A stretch of 22,635 bases of DNA from a virus, in IMG/VR virus record IMGVR_UViG_3300030329_001283, positions 1-22,635 of that record. One strand, written 5' to 3'. A model generated the notes under the pieces. That model was not told the DNA's origin. It saw only the letters and a list, made by a program, of their open reading frames with translations, and searched no databases. This document shows positions 6,507 to 22,635 of this stretch, piece after piece; the stretch's first letter is position 1; the number at the start of each line of letters is the position of its first letter. Position numbers and translations under genes: made by a program.

Positions 6507-6555
6507 AAAAGAGGGGAGCGGCATGCATGTAAACGCTCTCCGCTCCTCTTTTTTT
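6507..6555 (+). terminator. Intrinsic terminator after the major capsid gene
   Basis: GGGGAGCGG (6513-6521) pairs with CCGCTCCTC (6540-6548) with one G-U wobble. The stem extends outward through the A-rich 5' flank and the T run, giving about 15 base pairs and an 18-base loop. Seven T residues follow (6549-6555). This is the only hairpin with a U tract I found in the window and it starts about 12 bases after the capsid stop. A second copy of the 3' arm, CGCTCTCC (6534-6541), can pair with GGGGAGCG (6513-6520) instead. Confidence 0.9.
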
Positions 6556-6586
6556 ATTTATTAATTTTATTATATAATATTTTATT

Positions 6587-7411
6587 ATGGCAAAGAAAAA
6601 AGAAACAAAAACAGAAGTGGAATCAACTCCACAGGTTGAAAAACCAAAAGTTGAAACACCGGTTGTGGAAACTCCAAAACCAAAAAAAGATGAATGGGAA
6701 ATAAAAGATAGAACCTATTATTTAAAAGGTAAAAAAACACCTTTATCTTATATGATAAGATCAACTGGGATTTACTGGTTTGATGAAGAAAAAGGATATG
6801 AAAGAGAATTAAAGTATTGTCAAAATCAAAGAACTCCTTTTGTTGATGAAATGCAGGGTGATCAAAGATTAGATCATATTATTTTTAGAAGTGGAGCTTT
6901 ATTTGTGCCTAGAAACAAAGTGGTTTTACAAAAATTATTAAGTTTATATCATCCACATAAAGATAAGGTTTATTATGAGTGGAAACCAGTTCAACAAGCA
7001 GAAAGACAGTTAGATTGGTTAGAATTTGAAGTAGCAGCATTACAAGCGGCTAGTAATTTAGATGTTGATATGATGGAAGCTGTTATGCGTGCTGAAATCG
7101 GTTCTAGAGTATCAGAGATGTCCTATAAGGAATTAAAACGTGATTTACTTATATTTGCTAAGAAAAATCCTAAACTATTCTTAGAACTTGTTACAGATGA
7201 TTCTATTCAACTTAGAAATTTTGGTATCAAAGCAACGGAGGCTGGTATATTAACTTTATCTGCAAACCAAAGAACTTTTAGTTGGGGTTCTACTGGTAGA
7301 AAATTAATGAACGTTCCGTTTGATGAACACCCTTATTCAGCTTTAGCTCAATGGTTTAAAACTGATGAAGGTATGGAGATTTATAAGAATATCGAAAAGA
7401 GAATGAATTAA
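6587..7411 (+). CDS. Conserved post-capsid structural protein of unknown role
   Basis: The protein has 274 residues. Residues 1-37 are a low-complexity Lys/Glu/Thr/Pro tail that begins MAKKKETK, much like the scaffold's start. From about 38 on it is compact: a beta-rich stretch with GKKTPLSYMIRSTGIYWFDE and FVDEMQGDQRLDHIIFRSG, then helices from about 130, including LDWLEFEVAALQAASNLDVD and MSYKELKRDLLIFAKKNPKL. It ends with a WGSTGRKLM...FDEHPYSALAQWF segment. It resembles hypothetical proteins that I believe sit after the capsid gene in uncultured marine phages, but I know of no assigned function. A head auxiliary, decoration or head-closure role is inferred from position. It lies between a terminator and a GC-rich hairpin, so it may have its own expression level. 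Confidence 0.8.
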   Translation: MAKKKETKTEVESTPQVEKPKVETPVVETPKPKKDEWEIKDRTYYLKGKKTPLSYMIRSTGIYWFDEEKGYERELKYCQNQRTPFVDEMQGDQRLDHIIFRSGALFVPRNKVVLQKLLSLYHPHKDKVYYEWKPVQQAERQLDWLEFEVAALQAASNLDVDMMEAVMRAEIGSRVSEMSYKELKRDLLIFAKKNPKLFLELVTDDSIQLRNFGIKATEAGILTLSANQRTFSWGSTGRKLMNVPFDEHPYSALAQWFKTDEGMEIYKNIEKRMN

Positions 7412-7422
7412 AAATAATATAA

Positions 7423-7448
7423 AGCAACCATCCTCACGGGTGGTTGCT
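7423..7448 (+). other. GC-rich RNA hairpin without a U tract
   Basis: AGCAACCATCC (7423-7433) pairs with GGGTGGTTGCT (7438-7448) over 11 base pairs with one U-G wobble, closed by the four-base loop TCAC. It lies 11 bases after the preceding stop and 19 bases before the next start. What follows is ATATTAAAAATT, with no T run, so it does not look like a classical intrinsic terminator. It could protect a 3' end, mark an RNA processing site, or act as a weak terminator in a host with different termination rules. Confidence 0.75.
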
Positions 7449-7451
7449 ATA

Positions 7452-7463
7452 TTAAAAATTAAA
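7452..7463 (+). promoter_or_regulatory. A/T-only translation leader of the mini-protein gene
   Basis: This is the second exact copy of TTAAAAATTAAA, ending 4 bases before the ATG at 7468. It begins just after the hairpin at 7423-7448 and probably keeps the start region single-stranded. No Shine-Dalgarno sequence is present. In so A/T-rich a genome chance recurrence is possible. Confidence 0.3.
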
Positions 7464-7467
7464 TAGT

Positions 7468-7626
7468 ATGGAATCAAAAAAATCAAAGGGTTTAGGAGAC
7501 TCAATAGAAAAAATTACAGAAATAACTGGAATCAAAAAAGTAGTAGAAAAAGTAACTGGAAAAAAAGATTGCGGTTGTAAGAAAAGAAAAGAAGCTTTAA
7601 ACAAAGCTTTTCCTTATAAAAAATAA
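7468..7626 (+). CDS. Small Cys-containing phage protein (52 residues)
   Basis: The short frame encodes 52 residues starting MESKKSKGLGDSIEKITE and ending in TAA 11 bases before the next gene. An amphipathic helical half (GDSIEKITEITGIKKVVEKV) leads into GKKDCGCKKRKEALNKAFPY, with Cys35 and Cys37 in a C-G-C pair beside a basic run. The gene fills an otherwise empty gap in a tightly packed module, has the same A/T leader as its neighbours and uses the same codons, all of which support a real gene. Similar small proteins ending in a CGC-KRKE-LN-FPY pattern occur, as far as I recall, in other marine phages, without known function. Metal binding, DNA binding or a small virion part are all possible; I cannot choose. 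Confidence 0.78.
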   Translation: MESKKSKGLGDSIEKITEITGIKKVVEKVTGKKDCGCKKRKEALNKAFPYKK

Positions 7627-7637
7627 AAAAATAAAAA

Positions 7638-8366
7638 ATGGCGGTAAGTATAGATACAGTATATCAAAGAGTTTTAGCTTTAGCTGGTAAAGAACAAAGA
7701 GGATATATAACACCTCAAGAGTTTAATTTATTTGCTAATCAAGCGCAAATGGCTATATTTGAACAATATTTTTATGATATAAAACAATTTAGCCAGCAAC
7801 CTGGAAACGACACGGAGTATTCTGATATGTTGGATTTATTAAATAAGAAGTTAGCGCCTTTTCAAAGAACTAGTAGTAATCTGAGTTATAGCGCTTTTGA
7901 CTCTCAATTTATACTACCTACGGCTTCCTATAGATTGGGAACCGTTATATATAGTCCTAGCTCACTTACTTATCCAGTAGAAATACAGGAAATAAAAGAA
8001 AATGAGTTATTATACATAAACGCATCACCAATAGCAAGACCAACAGATAAAAGACCTGTTTACGTAAGAACTGGAAATACAACTATTAAAATTATACCAA
8101 CTACTATTGTTGATGATGTAACATGTACTTATGTTATAGCTCCAACTAGAAAGAATGGTAATGATGCTAAGTGGGGTTATGCTGTAATCAATGGTCAAGC
8201 TTTATATAATCAAAATGAAACAACTGATTTCATGCTACATGAATCTGAAGAGTCTAGTTTAGTAATCAATATACTAGAGCTAGCAGGTGTTACGTTAAAC
8301 AAACCTGGATTAGTGCAAATAGCGCAAAATGAAAGAAATTCAAAAATAACGCAAGAAAAATCATAA
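7638..8366 (+). CDS. Probable head-tail connector or virion structural protein
   Basis: The protein has 242 residues. The N-terminal third is helical and begins VSIDTVYQRVLALAGKEQRG, then YITPQEFNLFANQAQMAIFE (about residues 21-40). The middle (about 85-185) is beta-rich, with YPVEIQEIKENELLYINASP and repeated short strands, and the C-terminus is helical again (SSLVINILELAGVTLNKPGL). Helix, beta insertion, helix is common in connector and ring proteins. It lies two genes upstream of the nozzle and is followed after three bases by another connector candidate. Tandem TAA codons end it. Similar N-termini are frequent among uncultured marine phage structural proteins. The exact place in the virion is inferred from order. 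Confidence 0.72.
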   Translation: MAVSIDTVYQRVLALAGKEQRGYITPQEFNLFANQAQMAIFEQYFYDIKQFSQQPGNDTEYSDMLDLLNKKLAPFQRTSSNLSYSAFDSQFILPTASYRLGTVIYSPSSLTYPVEIQEIKENELLYINASPIARPTDKRPVYVRTGNTTIKIIPTTIVDDVTCTYVIAPTRKNGNDAKWGYAVINGQALYNQNETTDFMLHESEESSLVINILELAGVTLNKPGLVQIAQNERNSKITQEKS

Positions 8367-8369
8367 TAA

Positions 8370-9248
8370 ATGGGATTAATAACACAAACAGGAGAACAGT
8401 ATTATAGTACGGCATCGCCAACGCCTTTTGGTGATTATCAATTTATTTCTTTACAAACTATAATAAATAACTTTATTGTTGCTTATGTTGGAGAAGATAA
8501 AATAATAAGTAAAATTAAAAGAACAGATGTTCAATTTCATGCCATGAGAGCCTTGCAGGAATTATCGTTTGATACGTTTAAATCTATAAAATCACAAGAA
8601 ATAGAATTACCAGCTTCTTTAACTATGATACTACCTCAAGATTATGTTAACTATGTTAAATTTACTTGGGTAGACGGTGTTGGTGTTGAGCATGTGCTTT
8701 ATCCAGCTTATAAGACATCTAATCCTACAGATGTTACACAAGATGCTAGTGGTAACTACACGTTTACAGCTGGTGTTTTAGATACCGACACATCATCAAC
8801 AACTTGGGATAAATACAAATCTAATACTCCCGCAGAAAATCAAAATGATGATTATGAAGATGAAACTTATTGGCCTCATGATGGTCAAAGATACGGATTA
8901 GATCCTAGTCATGCTCAGGTAAATGGATCTTTTTATATAGATCCAAATACTGGTTTAGTACATTTTAGTTCTAATTTATCAGGACAAACTATAACATTAA
9001 AATATATAAGTGATGGTTTAGGTACAGATGACGAAATGAAAGTTCATAAATTTGCTGAAGAGGCTATGTATAAATGGATTGCTCATGCTATATTAGCAAC
9101 AAGGGCTAACACACAAGAATATTTAGTTGCTAGATTTAAGAAAGAAAGATTTGCAGAAGTAAGAAAAGCAAAATTAAGATTATCAAATATAAAATTAGAA
9201 GAGATTACTCAAGTATTAAGAGGTAAATCGAAACATATAAAACATTAA
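8370..9248 (+). CDS. Probable head-tail adaptor (P22 gp4-like / crAss-like tail tubular type)
   Basis: The protein has 292 residues. Residues 25-75 are helical (IINNFIVAYVGEDKIISK, then HAMRALQELSFDTFKSIKSQ). These are followed by strands with LPASLTMILPQDYVNYVKFTW, a pattern typical of adaptor proteins that dock under the portal. A variable Asp/Thr/Asn-rich beta insertion spans about 110-215. The last 70 residues are strongly helical and basic (KFAEEAMYKWIAHAILATRA and following), which would suit contact with portal or nozzle. It starts three bases after the upstream gene and ends four bases before the nozzle gene, so the three are surely co-translated or tightly coupled. The gp4-like label comes from the fold pattern and from sitting directly upstream of a gp10-like protein. 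Confidence 0.72.
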   Translation: MGLITQTGEQYYSTASPTPFGDYQFISLQTIINNFIVAYVGEDKIISKIKRTDVQFHAMRALQELSFDTFKSIKSQEIELPASLTMILPQDYVNYVKFTWVDGVGVEHVLYPAYKTSNPTDVTQDASGNYTFTAGVLDTDTSSTTWDKYKSNTPAENQNDDYEDETYWPHDGQRYGLDPSHAQVNGSFYIDPNTGLVHFSSNLSGQTITLKYISDGLGTDDEMKVHKFAEEAMYKWIAHAILATRANTQEYLVARFKKERFAEVRKAKLRLSNIKLEEITQVLRGKSKHIKH

Positions 9249-18087: not shown

Positions 18088-18555
18088 ATGGCTGACAAGC
18101 AAGATATAATAAAAAAAGAACAACAACTACAGAAAAGAAGTGGAATAATGGAACTACAAGATTCTTTAATGAAGTTTGTAGATGGAAAAAATGTAGTAAA
18201 AGGAGATTCTGAAGTTTTTCCTTTAAAACACACTTTTACCGACGGGATATATATTAGACAAATGTCTATGAAAAAAGATTCGTTTGTTATAGGTAAAATA
18301 CACAAGCACAACCATGTTTGGTTTTTATTAACTGGACATATAGTTGTGGCTGACGAACATGGAACCGTTGAGCATATAGCACCATGTTATGTTGAAGCGC
18401 CGGCGGGTTCTAAAAGAATGATATATGCAGAAGAAGATTCAATATGGGTTAATATACATGCTAACCCTACAAACACGAGAGATTTAGAAGAATTAGAAAA
18501 ATTAATTATAGCAAAAGATTACGATGAGTTTAATGAGTATAACAATAAAAAATAA
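18088..18555 (+). CDS. Cupin-fold protein in the structural module
   Basis: The protein has 155 residues. A charged helical start (1-35) leads into a single cupin barrel. The first cupin motif is at about 69-83, GKIHKHNHVWFLLTG, with His72, His74 and His76. The second is around 104-124, EAPAGSKRMIYAEEDSIWVN followed by His124. The usual Glu after the HxH pair is not at its normal place, so metal binding or catalysis is uncertain. The C-terminus is an acidic helix (DLEELEKLIIAKDYDEFNEY). Related cupin-like proteins occur among structural genes of diverse phages, as I recall, without a demonstrated reaction. A structural, trimer-forming or glycan-linked role at the fibre is as likely as an enzyme. 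A 40-base A/T-rich gap precedes it, the largest gap in this half apart from none other of note. Confidence 0.78.
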   Translation: MADKQDIIKKEQQLQKRSGIMELQDSLMKFVDGKNVVKGDSEVFPLKHTFTDGIYIRQMSMKKDSFVIGKIHKHNHVWFLLTGHIVVADEHGTVEHIAPCYVEAPAGSKRMIYAEEDSIWVNIHANPTNTRDLEELEKLIIAKDYDEFNEYNNKK

Positions 18556-18561
18556 TATATT

Positions 18562-19194
18562 ATGAGTTTTGTAACATTAGGAGTAGCGGTTGTTGGTGGC
18601 GCAGCAAAGCTAATAAGTGCAGGTCAAGGTAGAGCACAAAGAAAAAAAGAACAAAGAAGAGCTAATGCCGAGTTAGCTAAACGTCAAGCTGCGTATGAAA
18701 ACCTAGACGTTACAAATCCGTATGCTAATTTAGAAAATACTTATGAAGATTTAACTGTAAATCAACAACAAGCTGAGTTTATGATGCAGCAAAATGCTAT
18801 ACAACAAGCAAATACAATGCAAGGGTTACGTGCTGCTGCGGGTGGTTCTGGTGTGGCTGGACTTGCTCAAGCTATGGCTAATCAAGGTCAAATTGCTGCT
18901 CAAAAAGCATCGACAACTATTGGTCAACAAGAAGCGGCAAATGAAAGAGCTGCTGCGCAAGGTGAGGCCGCTAGACAAAGGGCTGTTGCTCAAGGTGAAG
19001 TTGGAAGACAAACAAGAGAAAAACAAAAACAAGGGGATTTATTAGAAATGGCTATGGGTCAAAAAGCAGCTGCTGACGAAGCTAGAACCGCTGCCGCTAC
19101 ACAGGCTTGGCAAGGTGTTGGTGAGATTGCTGGTGGTGTTGCTGCTCATAAGAAATCAATGGATGATCAGGGTTTAAACTTCTGGGGTAAATAA
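18562..19194 (+). CDS. Ala/Gln-rich internal virion (ejection) protein candidate
   Basis: The 210-residue protein starts with a short hydrophobic, Gly-rich segment (residues 4-19, VTLGVAVVGGAAKLIS). It then becomes basic and helical (GQGRAQRKKEQRRANAELAK) and stays Ala/Gln/Glu/Arg-rich to about 175 with hardly any aromatic residues. This composition, with an Ala-rich hydrophobic start and Gln-rich helices, is like internal proteins that short-tailed phages eject to form a channel across the host envelope (T7 gp14 and P22 gp7/gp20 type). A second small hydrophobic Gly/Ala patch lies at 183-195 (WQGVGEIAGGVAA). It comes after the fibre and cupin genes and before two large proteins, as internal-core genes often do. 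No specific domain is recognised, so the role is inferred. Confidence 0.68.
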   Translation: MSFVTLGVAVVGGAAKLISAGQGRAQRKKEQRRANAELAKRQAAYENLDVTNPYANLENTYEDLTVNQQQAEFMMQQNAIQQANTMQGLRAAAGGSGVAGLAQAMANQGQIAAQKASTTIGQQEAANERAAAQGEAARQRAVAQGEVGRQTREKQKQGDLLEMAMGQKAAADEARTAAATQAWQGVGEIAGGVAAHKKSMDDQGLNFWGK

Positions 19195-19205: not shown

Positions 19206-22103
19206 ATGGCAAAGAAAAAAGATAATAAAAGTAAACCGCTAAAACAAATTACAGATCCATTAGGGATACCACAAACTCAACAGCGTGGTTGGTTTGGTAA
19301 AGCTAAAGAAGCTGCTAAAGGAGGAGCTGGTGATACTGTTGGTTTTGGATCACTAGGTTATGGTGTTAATTGGTCTAAAGTAGATTTCGGTAAAGCCGCT
19401 TTATCCAAAAAAATGAATAATGAAGAAGGAGGTTGGGCAGCTAGAAAGCGTTGTGAAAAAGATGGTGGTACTTGGAACTATCAAACTAAAAAGTGTGAAG
19501 GAATAGAAACAGAAACAGAAACACCAACTAACAACGATGTGCCAGTAGATAAAAGCATGTTGGGTGAGCCATGTAATTGTGAAGGTACAGAAACTGAAGG
19601 TAAGTATGTTGAAAATGCGAGCGGTGAAATAGTTTGCGAGTGTATCGATACAAAATCAACTAAATCCTCAGACGAAGATTGTAATTGTGATAACTTTGAT
19701 CCAGAACTATCTGACGAAAATGATCCGTGTTATGAAAAATGTGCAGGAACAGGAGATGATGAAGTAAACGAACAAGAAGAAAAATGTCCTGGATCATTAT
19801 TAGATCCTCCAACTCATTATTGGGATGATATAGGAAAAAAGTGTGTAGATAGAGATGACATGAAATCAAATGAAGATGAAGGTTCTTGTGAGGGAAAAGA
19901 AGAAGAAAAAGAAATGTGTGCTGCTGGAGACTATGGAGATGGAATGGTTTGGAATAACGACACGTGTGAATGTGAACAAGATCCAAACAAAGGTTCTGGT
20001 TCAGATATAAAGCCAAAGAAAGACGATACAAAACCAAAGCAAAACGATCAAGATCTTAATTTAGAAGCTAAAAAAGGTGATAAAGACGACCTCTTGAAAA
20101 ACGATATAGAAAACATGAGGGTAAGCGAGTTGAATCAAGGTCTAGATATGAATAGATTAACCCCTAATAGCGGAAAACAATTAAATAAAAATCTAGCAGC
20201 ATTAAGTGATCCAGAAACTCATAGTGGTAATATAAATGGCGCTTCTGGTAAGATTTTTGAAGGTGTAAATGCAAACGATTATACTAGTATAGCTTTAGGT
20301 GGTGGTGAAATAAAAAATAAAAAACAGCAATATAGTTTTAAAAGAGGAAAATTAACAGGACAGACTAATAGCGGCGCTATGTGGGTTGATCTTGATGATG
20401 GAGATAAGAAGAGGCGAAAAAGATTTAACTGGAGTTTTGAAATTACAGGTAAAGGTGAAATTAGCTTTAATAAAATGACTGGTTATTCACAAGAAGTTTG
20501 GGGTAATATTATTGGAGGTTTAAGAAAAGATGGGAATAAAGGTATAGGTGTTGATTTAGAAAAAGGTAAAGCCACCATGACTAAGCAAGAGTGGGATAAG
20601 TTTACTAAAGTCTATAATAAAAAAATAGAAGAATTAATAAAAAGACGTGATAGATTCGCTAAAGATCATGCTAATAATGAGGATTCTGTTTGGTGGGCTA
20701 ATAATAGTTTTGAACCTTGGGAAAGAGACTTATTAAGAATGCATGCTCAGGGATTTTTTGCTAATACTTTTGGTAAAGAAGAACCACCAACAAAATTTAA
20801 AAATCCAATAAATTATGGTACACCAACTTTTGTTTCTCCTTTTAAAAGAAGAGATAGGAGTTACTTAAGAGTTAGAGAAAATTGGATGCCTACTCCAATG
20901 AAACATGGTACATTTGAGGATTTTCAATATGGAAGAAATGGACACAATCCAGATACCATGTCGGCAAAACATGAAGATTGGCATTTAAAACAATCTGGTG
21001 AATCACCAAATAATTACAATAGTCCTTTTCATCAAGAGGAACAAATGCAACAACCTACTAATATATGGGAGAAAATACAAGCTTATGGTAAAGATATGGA
21101 TAAAAGAATTGATAAATTTATTCAACACACAAATTATGATCCAGCTACAGATAAACCTATAAATTCTTTTCAAAATCAAACTTGGGTTGGTATAATAACA
21201 GAATGGTTACAAGGTCAAAAACAAGTAATGATTGATGCTGGAAATAATAATGATAAACAAGCACAACAAAATGTGTCTACAGCAGTTAATCAATTGATAC
21301 AAGATGTAACTACTTATTCTGGGAAGTTCTTAGATTGGATAGATAGAAACTCTGGTGATCAAGCAGAAGGTAATGCTGGTGGATCTGTAACGTCTAACGG
21401 TTCTAGAAAAGATGAAAAATTTATAGGTAACATAACATTCATGGGTGATCAAAATACAACAATAGGTATAGGTGATGATGGTAAGATTGGTATTAAATCA
21501 TATGGTTTAGAAGATGTTAAATATGTAGAGGATTTAGATACCGATGTCTTTGCAAAAGATGATGCTGGTTATCAAATGTTTTTAGAAGCATCTGGACAGT
21601 TACAAAAAGATGCTGAATCTGGAAAACCATTAAATAGCAGTATTGTTGAAGGACACGCTGATAACTTACTTAAAAACGAAGATAGTATATTATCTTGGGC
21701 TTTTGATTCAATGTATGGTCAATCGTGGATACAAGATTACGTTCAAGCAAATCCAAACGCTGATGTAGATATGTTTATGCCAGAAAGTCCTAGTTTTGAT
21801 ATAGATTATTTAACAGATGAATTACATGGTTGGCTTACTTCTAAATTAACAGAAGCATATGAAAAAAATAAGCCAGCACAACCAGAACAAAAAGGTGAGG
21901 CTGCTCAAGGTATAATGAACGAAACCTTAGCAAACGTAGAGCAAGAAAAAGAAAATAAAGAAGGTGTTTATGCTGAAGAAGGAGCTGAACAACCTGCTAT
22001 GCAACCGCAAGGTATGCCTGCACCTCAAGAATCACCAATGATGTATAGATCACCAAGACGAGCAAGGGAAATATTAAAAAAATTAAATAAAATAAATAGA
22101 TGA
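19206..22103 (+). CDS. Large Cys-block protein, candidate internal virion protein
   Basis: I recognise no enzyme domain in these 965 residues. Residues 1-80 are basic and Gly-rich (MAKKKDNKSKPLKQITDPLG). Residues 83-256 hold all 16 cysteines of the protein, many as C-x-C pairs (123/125, 144/146, 159/161, 254/256), in a very acidic background. Three C...W[DN]...C units lie at 83-97, 194-213 and 238-256. Residues 260-330 are low complexity. Residues about 345-460 look globular (beta-rich with Trp), then helical. Residues 540-610 carry repeated Ser/Thr-Pro-Phe/Met motifs (VSPFKRR, PTPMKHG, NSPFHQE). The end is an acidic tail then SPMMYRSPRRAREILKKLNK. It probably belongs to the internal core with its neighbours. 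Its TGA stop overlaps the next ATG by four bases. Confidence 0.72.
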   Translation: MAKKKDNKSKPLKQITDPLGIPQTQQRGWFGKAKEAAKGGAGDTVGFGSLGYGVNWSKVDFGKAALSKKMNNEEGGWAARKRCEKDGGTWNYQTKKCEGIETETETPTNNDVPVDKSMLGEPCNCEGTETEGKYVENASGEIVCECIDTKSTKSSDEDCNCDNFDPELSDENDPCYEKCAGTGDDEVNEQEEKCPGSLLDPPTHYWDDIGKKCVDRDDMKSNEDEGSCEGKEEEKEMCAAGDYGDGMVWNNDTCECEQDPNKGSGSDIKPKKDDTKPKQNDQDLNLEAKKGDKDDLLKNDIENMRVSELNQGLDMNRLTPNSGKQLNKNLAALSDPETHSGNINGASGKIFEGVNANDYTSIALGGGEIKNKKQQYSFKRGKLTGQTNSGAMWVDLDDGDKKRRKRFNWSFEITGKGEISFNKMTGYSQEVWGNIIGGLRKDGNKGIGVDLEKGKATMTKQEWDKFTKVYNKKIEELIKRRDRFAKDHANNEDSVWWANNSFEPWERDLLRMHAQGFFANTFGKEEPPTKFKNPINYGTPTFVSPFKRRDRSYLRVRENWMPTPMKHGTFEDFQYGRNGHNPDTMSAKHEDWHLKQSGESPNNYNSPFHQEEQMQQPTNIWEKIQAYGKDMDKRIDKFIQHTNYDPATDKPINSFQNQTWVGIITEWLQGQKQVMIDAGNNNDKQAQQNVSTAVNQLIQDVTTYSGKFLDWIDRNSGDQAEGNAGGSVTSNGSRKDEKFIGNITFMGDQNTTIGIGDDGKIGIKSYGLEDVKYVEDLDTDVFAKDDAGYQMFLEASGQLQKDAESGKPLNSSIVEGHADNLLKNEDSILSWAFDSMYGQSWIQDYVQANPNADVDMFMPESPSFDIDYLTDELHGWLTSKLTEAYEKNKPAQPEQKGEAAQGIMNETLANVEQEKENKEGVYAEEGAEQPAMQPQGMPAPQESPMMYRSPRRAREILKKLNKINR

Positions 22104-22635
22104 GTAAAACAAGCCCTTTTTTACAAGAAGTAGATGTTGAAACTAATGAGGAATTAGAAACTAATATCCAAGAGTTACCAAAGGCTTCAACTGAAACTGA
22201 AGAATTAAAGTTAGATGAAAGGTGTCCAGAAGGTTCTCTTTGGGATAAAGAGAAAGGTATGTGTGTACCTACGGAAACTGAACCTATAGAAACAGAGAAA
22301 AAAGAGGAGGTTGGAACGTTAACAGAAGAATTAATAGAGAAAGATTATGAGAGCGAATTGGAGGGCACGGAGGAAGAGTTTATACAAACCTCTGATTTTG
22401 CAGAAGGATTATCTATCATATTGCAAAACTATACACATATACCAAAGTTTGATTTAAAAACAGAAGATGGTAAGTTATTTTACGAAAACGCAAACAAAGC
22501 GTATCAAGCTTTTATAGCAAAATATCCAGATTTAAATCCAGAAGAATATATAGAAAACTTTGTAAAAACACAACCAGAGGTTTTAGAAAATAATTTTTAT
22601 CAAAAAGATGAAGGTTATTATAATGAAATAGCATC
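22100..22635 (+). CDS. Start of an acidic protein cut by the right edge
   Basis: An ATG at 22100 overlaps the upstream TGA as ATGA, and the frame stays open for 178 codons to the window end. The protein begins MSKTSPFLQEVDVETNEELE and is strongly acidic for about 105 residues, then looks more globular (DFAEGLSIILQNYTHIPKFD, then NANKAYQAFIAKYPDLNPEE). Residues 42-55 read CPEGSLWDKEKGMC, the same kind of C...W[DN]...C unit as in the upstream protein, and residues 5-7 repeat its Ser-Pro-Phe motif. Overlap and shared motifs suggest coupled translation and a common role. In crAss-like phages very large virion proteins lie in such a position, but nothing visible here shows a polymerase, lysozyme or other enzyme. 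Confidence 0.82.
   Translation, partial: MSKTSPFLQEVDVETNEELETNIQELPKASTETEELKLDERCPEGSLWDKEKGMCVPTETEPIETEKKEEVGTLTEELIEKDYESELEGTEEEFIQTSDFAEGLSIILQNYTHIPKFDLKTEDGKLFYENANKAYQAFIAKYPDLNPEEYIENFVKTQPEVLENNFYQKDEGYYNEIA

Follow-up and report, generated by a model that had tools for sequence, protein, structure and literature searches.

The window analysed here spans all 22,635 bases of a virus record and ends in a block of three genes on the plus strand. The first (18562-19194) encodes a 210-residue, Ala/Gln-rich, helical protein with no cysteine, a homolog of gp99 of Cellulophaga phage phi38:1 at the position held by gp14 in T7. The second (19206-22103) encodes a 965-residue protein for which we propose the role of ejection (internal virion) protein 2, based on its open reading frame, its synteny with phi38:1 gp100 and a profile match. 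The record ends within the third gene and holds only the N-terminus of its giant product (22100-22633); relatives of this protein are mostly 2,700-3,700 residues long. A 155-residue protein matching the PHROG short tail fiber and tail fiber adhesin families (18088-18555; E 8.4e-31) lies between the tail genes and the block.

The terminase, portal and capsid genes of the window matched PHROG families. The portal protein retrieved 87 phage-record matches, all below 60% identity, from phages of Flavobacterium (68), Cellulophaga (15), Tenacibaculum (2), Maribacter (1) and an unassigned host (1); the best were MW202828 (52.0%) and Maribacter phage Panino (46.2%). By sequence similarity, the window is a podophage of marine Bacteroidota, kin to Cellulophaga, Maribacter and Flavobacterium phages, and an initial reading of the DNA from its letters alone (the sequence-only reading), which had taken the host to be Gram-negative, is reasonable given this kinship of the portal with Flavobacteriia phages. 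Relatives of the 210-residue protein also occur in contigs of metagenome-assembled genomes labelled Flavobacteriaceae (two) and Woesearchaeota (one), which is weak evidence for the host as these are phage contigs within such assemblies.

The gene order of the window (terminase, portal, capsid, tail, then a small, a medium and a giant protein) is the same as that of gp90-gp101 in phi38:1 (Pervagoviridae), where terminase, portal, a structural protein and the capsid protein are followed by four genes up to the long gp97 and then by gp98-gp101. The last three of these, gp99 (200 residues), gp100 (549 residues) and gp101 (1,691 residues), are all annotated as structural and contain no cysteine. 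The 210-residue family is homologous to gp99 (hhalign probability 76.8, E 2.1e-5) and also matched its equivalents in phages Panino and elemo (probabilities 75.4 and 52.1). Two of 50 members of the family matched a PHROG "DNA ejection protein" family (best E 1.4e-10), and four matched a "virion structural protein" family. The model of the 210-residue protein is all-helix (mean pLDDT 69.5), and a PDB fold search with it gave no match.

The same small-medium-giant order, directly after the tail genes, is found in the gp14-gp15-gp16 genes of T7, which are annotated as internal virion proteins and form its DNA ejectosome; the 965-residue protein, as the middle gene, holds the position of gp15. Unlike this likeness in order, sequence homology to T7 was not detectable: the 210-residue family did not match gp14 in profile comparison, the family of the 965-residue protein reached an hhalign probability of only 0.2 against gp15, and sequence-profile comparison of the block with the ejection proteins of T7, P22 and N4 gave no match. 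The 965-residue family likewise had no detectable homology to phi38:1 gp100 by profile comparison. We infer an ejection role from position and composition; judging by synteny, the three-gene block probably occupies the place of the T7 cassette. The suggestion that the 965-residue protein is a virion protein gains support through its synteny with gp100, given the structural annotation of the latter.

The cysteine-rich linker and its modules

The 16 cysteines of the 965-residue protein are residues 83, 97, 123, 125, 144, 146, 159, 161, 175, 179, 194, 213, 228, 238, 254 and 256. The sequence-only reading had described all of them as confined to 174 residues (83-256; 19452-19973, plus strand), with four C-x-C pairs in an acidic background, and each of these statements was confirmed: the pairs are CNC, CEC, CNC and CEC, and the stretch contains 50 Asp/Glu against 15 Lys/Arg. 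When 16 cysteines were placed at random among 965 residues, a span of 173 or less was obtained in 0 of 200,000 trials (smallest span, 355). Four C-x-C pairs are a modest excess in the window (shuffle mean 1.36, with at least four in 671 of 20,000 shuffles) and a strong one in the relatives L118 (10 of 20,000) and L119 and L121 (0 of 20,000 each); no such excess was seen by shuffling in L116, L117 or L136. We rejected the possibility that the region is untranslated, as the frame is open for 965 codons, homologs share it, and dN is below dS within the cysteine region (0.13 and 0.21 for L118-L121; 0.31 and 0.54 for L117-L136).

By inspection, the 16 cysteines divide into modules of two, four, four, two and four, all on the plus strand. 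A two-Cys hairpin (residues 83-97; 19452-19496) has predicted strands at 89-91 and 96-98, and its form recurs in L117 and L136. It is followed by a CxC...CxC module (123-146; 19572-19643; predicted strands 122-124, 131-136 and 142-146), a form shared with L118, L119 and L121, and by a CxC...Cx3C module (159-179; 19680-19742) whose form is found in L116, L117 and L136. These first three forms recur in differing order and number. A two-Cys loop (194-213; 19785-19844) was assigned from the sequence by inspection, the structure model predicting nothing there, and the last four-Cys module (228-256; 19887-19973; predicted strands 247-250 and 253-256) is the stretch best conserved with L116. Beyond what the sequence-only reading had noted, the next gene carries one further module of the same kind, a two-Cys hairpin (Cys 42 and 55; 22223-22264, plus strand) with a weak match to CBM_14. 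One such hairpin is present in the third protein of the window, L117, L118 and L121, and none was found in those of L116, L119 and L136.

The AlphaFold2 model of the 965-residue protein, built with nine sequences, is poor (mean pLDDT 46.9). The predicted strands lie between paired cysteines, in blocks with pLDDT of 52-71 against about 27-32 in several flanking blocks. The model does not bear out the single compact domain that had been suggested for this stretch; it shows small hairpins as islands along a linker that is otherwise disordered.

Searches of PHROGs, Pfam and NCBIfam with the 965-residue protein returned nothing above curated cut-offs or below E 0.01, a profile search of the PDB gave no match, and no INPHARED phage record encodes a relative by tblastn; the cysteine stretch alone also had no tblastn match there, in a search where low-complexity filtering may hide one. 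Scans of viral contigs with one or two sequences of the family returned nothing, and a scan with a seven-sequence alignment returned eight loci, two of them new. The resulting family has nine members of 807-965 residues: the window, L116, L117, L118, L119, L121, L136, L180 and L181.

The common C-terminal part of this clade (residues 656-842 in the window; 21171-21731, plus strand) is homologous to the ordinary cysteine-free second protein of related phages (family A8; hhalign probability 96.3, E 1.7e-9), and it did not match a second, more diverse subset of such proteins (A9). Because the ordinary protein aligns only from its position 68, the clade has several hundred additional residues at the N-terminus, and the linker lies within this extension. 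The window's 16 cysteines compare with none in 50 of 55 second proteins outside the clade, and the cysteine linker is real and restricted to the clade. Across the nine members, the linker contains 16, 16, 18, 10, 12, 14, 20, 2 and 0 cysteines, so that seven of nine have 10-20. All of these counts are even, an argument that rests on about five independent lineages only, since L118/L121, L117/L136 and L180/L181 are closer pairs that reduce the nine to about five or six. L116 and L118 each have two further cysteines beyond the linker, and L121 has one, unpaired, at residue 514.

The linker is hypervariable, with a dN of 0.31 against 0.13 in the rest of the protein for L117-L136 and of 0.63 against 0.03 for L180-L181. 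Whether cysteine positions hold in close relatives, which the sequence-only reading had proposed as a check, received a divided answer. Where modules align, most cysteine columns are kept (10 of 10 in L118-L121, 13 of 17 in L117-L136 and 14 of 16 in window-L136), but the figure drops to 8 of 21 for window-L116 and to 0 of 2 for L180-L181, and entire modules are free to vary. For example, L121 differs from L118 by one additional CxC...CxC four-Cys module. L180, with its two linker cysteines, carries GCMDPKATNYDEYAEVQPDGAC at a place where L181 has a TEQP-type repeat with no cysteine; apart from this, the two proteins hardly differ (522 of 557 aligned residues are identical). The modules are therefore dispensable, as L181 lacks any linker cysteine; its third protein starts with a module of the same class as GCMDPKATNYDEYAEVQPDGAC.

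The linker of L117 holds GCTNPDSENYNPDATIDDGSC, which belongs to the class of the L180 module. The long tail proteins of L089, L093, L102 and L103 have 27-57 cysteines, and their C-termini are also filled by this class (GCTDPxAxNYNPxAxxDDGSC), in repeats of the form GCTDPTALNYNPNATIDDGSC. The class of the tail-protein repeats (GCTDPTALNYNPxAxxDDGSC) is thus the one seen in the L117 and L180 linkers and in L181's third protein; the modules of the window's own linker have other forms. Pfam yielded no family for the repeat as it occurs in L093 and L102, and a literature search with the letters DDGSC returned unrelated papers only. L204 encodes a separate 736-residue protein with 37 cysteines (6549-8759).

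Near absence of cysteine from podophage ejection proteins

The more general finding, also beyond the sequence-only reading, is how little cysteine there is in the equivalent proteins of relatives and in podophage ejection proteins. A scan with the alignment of the 210-residue family gave 64 loci, from which L175 was dropped for having no open reading frame there, and cysteines were counted in the 57 non-clade loci. Together, the three block proteins contain 13 cysteines in 97,626 residues; the frequency in the upstream open reading frames (0.997% Cys) would give about 973. For the first proteins the count is 1 in 13,871 residues (about 138 expected), for the second 8 in 25,449 (about 254 expected) and for the third 4 in 58,306 (about 581 expected). 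The expected values are raised because some upstream tail proteins are cysteine-rich; with the window's own 0.56% (its first 11 open reading frames) the depletion is still about 40-fold. These counts come from mechanical open reading frame calls and include some proteins cut by contig ends and some near-duplicate contigs. The block-to-upstream ratio is 0.01 for Cys, against 0.59 for Trp and 0.54 for His. A second set of relatives was found via the capsid protein. Here, the giant proteins (2,806-3,281 residues) of L088, L091, L092 and L106 are free of cysteine, and the second protein of L102 has four.

Ejection proteins of podophages from other families (T7, P22, N4, SP6 and phiKMV, our loci L194, L195, L196, L197 and L198) are almost or wholly cysteine-free. 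T7 gp14, gp15 and gp16 have 1, 0 and 0 cysteines, so that gp15 and gp16 are like the relatives of the window's protein and gp15 is without a Cys-rich insert. P22 gp7, gp20 and gp16, SP6 p35-p37, phiKMV gp35-gp37, and N4 gp50 (3,500 residues), gp51 and gp52 have none. The rule is not absolute, as gp14-gp17 of epsilon15 have 1, 2, 1 and 1. Apart from T7 and N4, we take the comparison podophage proteins to be ejected. Ejected status followed annotations, supplemented for T7 by the review PMC8954989 and for N4 by PMC12633501. In the open-access literature searched, we did not find a statement that ejection proteins lack cysteine, which is no proof that the observation is unpublished; the terms "cys" and "disulfide" were not in the main texts of PMC8954989, PMC12633501, PMC11440229 and PMC11784390, and that of PMC10925440 gave only "cystic".

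Some third proteins do carry cysteine. In the 3,348-residue giant protein of L204, the eight cysteines are two in an N-terminal module and six in the C-terminal tail. The third proteins of L203, L205 and L206 have further, scattered cysteines, indicating that the clade also relaxes the exclusion of cysteine in this protein. The giant proteins of L090, L098, L099, L101 and L104 end in a zinc-finger-like tandem of six cysteines with histidines, which in L090 matches DUF5763 above the cut-off (E 7.9e-11); similar six-Cys C-terminal ends occur within the clade in L203, L204 and L205. The 3,323-residue giant protein of L104 (8659-18630) additionally contains a Zeta-toxin/AAA_33/polynucleotide-kinase-like domain (residues 2211-2355), possibly an enzyme delivered with the DNA.

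Chemistry and possible function of the modules

The sequence-only reading had offered a disulfide-rich or a metal-loaded domain. The disulfide alternative found indirect support in the even linker counts of the nine relatives, in the gain and loss of whole pairs and modules, and in the module class shared with tail proteins. Even counts alone are compatible with both chemistries. A metal-loaded domain, with zinc or iron-sulfur clusters on the CxC pairs, would agree with the CxC excess in L118, L119 and L121 and with the zinc-finger-like tandems at the far C-terminus of relatives' third proteins, and the window's own 16 cysteines alone would fit sets of four. Across the clade, however, half of the eight non-zero counts (18, 10, 14 and 2) cannot be divided into sets of four, there are 0-1 histidines per segment, and two-Cys modules stand alone, so that local disulfide pairs fit better than zinc. 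No Pfam metal domain matched above its cut-off, and the match to the CXCXC repeat (PF03128; 13.7 bits) fell under the curated cut-off of 15. We therefore disfavour metal and regard it as very unlikely. Small glycan-binding hairpins, holding peptidoglycan or exopolysaccharide during envelope crossing, are also very unlikely in our view: the hairpin of the next gene weakly matches chitin-binding CBM_14 (E 0.013), and another module class fills relatives' tail proteins, but the CBM_14 match scored 16.0 bits against a curated cut-off of 22.1 and no linker module matched a carbohydrate-binding family.

It may also be that the modules form disulfides and have no role in infection, an unconstrained, hypervariable linker gaining them through recombination with genes for tail proteins. 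No part of the protein changes faster than the linker, and the difference between L180 and L181 shows free loss. We nevertheless consider passive modules somewhat unlikely, because seven of nine clade members keep their 10-20 linker cysteines, in even counts, against a near absence of cysteine in relatives' genes, and because L181 retains one module in the next gene. A phage-borne thioredoxin was considered as a partner and rejected; it matched in 4 of 12 records, namely two of eight clade records (one under the curated cut-off) and two of four others, with no association with the clade.

The reading we put forward, with moderate confidence, is that the 965-residue protein is an ejection protein with a flexible linker of disulfide-stapled beads that fold outside the reducing cytoplasm; ejection, disulfides and role are all points that we infer. 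The protein would most likely be the second of three ejection proteins of a marine Flavobacteriia podophage, packaged inside the capsid and entering the cell envelope before the DNA does. The clade has added, before the ordinary cysteine-free protein, an N-terminal extension with a flexible, acidic, hypervariable linker inside it, carrying interchangeable short modules of two or four cysteines. Each module may be closed by local disulfides after leaving the reducing cytoplasm, either in the periplasm or in free virions, and the change of state on leaving the cytoplasm that the sequence-only reading had proposed is in this sense possible. Small stapled beads could still pass the narrow tail channel, and within the envelope they might then serve as spacers or holds that are folded and resist proteases. 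With loops that are local, stapled modules could thread, while scattered cysteines could cross-link the threading chain, which would explain both the general exclusion of cysteine and the exception made by the clade. In T7, gp15 and the N-terminal part of gp16 are placed in the periplasm and the C-terminal part of gp16 in the cytoplasm (PMC8954989). If this topology holds here, disulfide-type modules would end in the oxidising periplasm and zinc-type modules in the reducing cytoplasm. Proteins with twin CxnC motifs in the mitochondrial intermembrane space are trapped oxidatively, threading in reduced form and folding with disulfides on the far side; the comparison is with how they work only, and no homology is claimed.

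A broader version, which we think unlikely, is a redox-topology code in which cysteine is barred from the chain crossing the envelope and admitted only where its final compartment makes it useful, periplasmic oxidation then trapping the linker and making ejection one-way. Such a code would fit the disulfide beads in the protein 2 linker and at the start of protein 3, regions that the T7 model puts in the periplasm, and the zinc-finger-like tandems at the C-terminus of protein 3, the region that in T7 enters the cytoplasm.

For N4, PMC12633501 states as an open question how a podophage tail can be threaded by proteins as long as 3,500 residues, which then refold across the envelope. The near absence of cysteine from ejection proteins, together with a clade whose exceptions are mostly locally paired modules, would open the redox side of ejection to testing.
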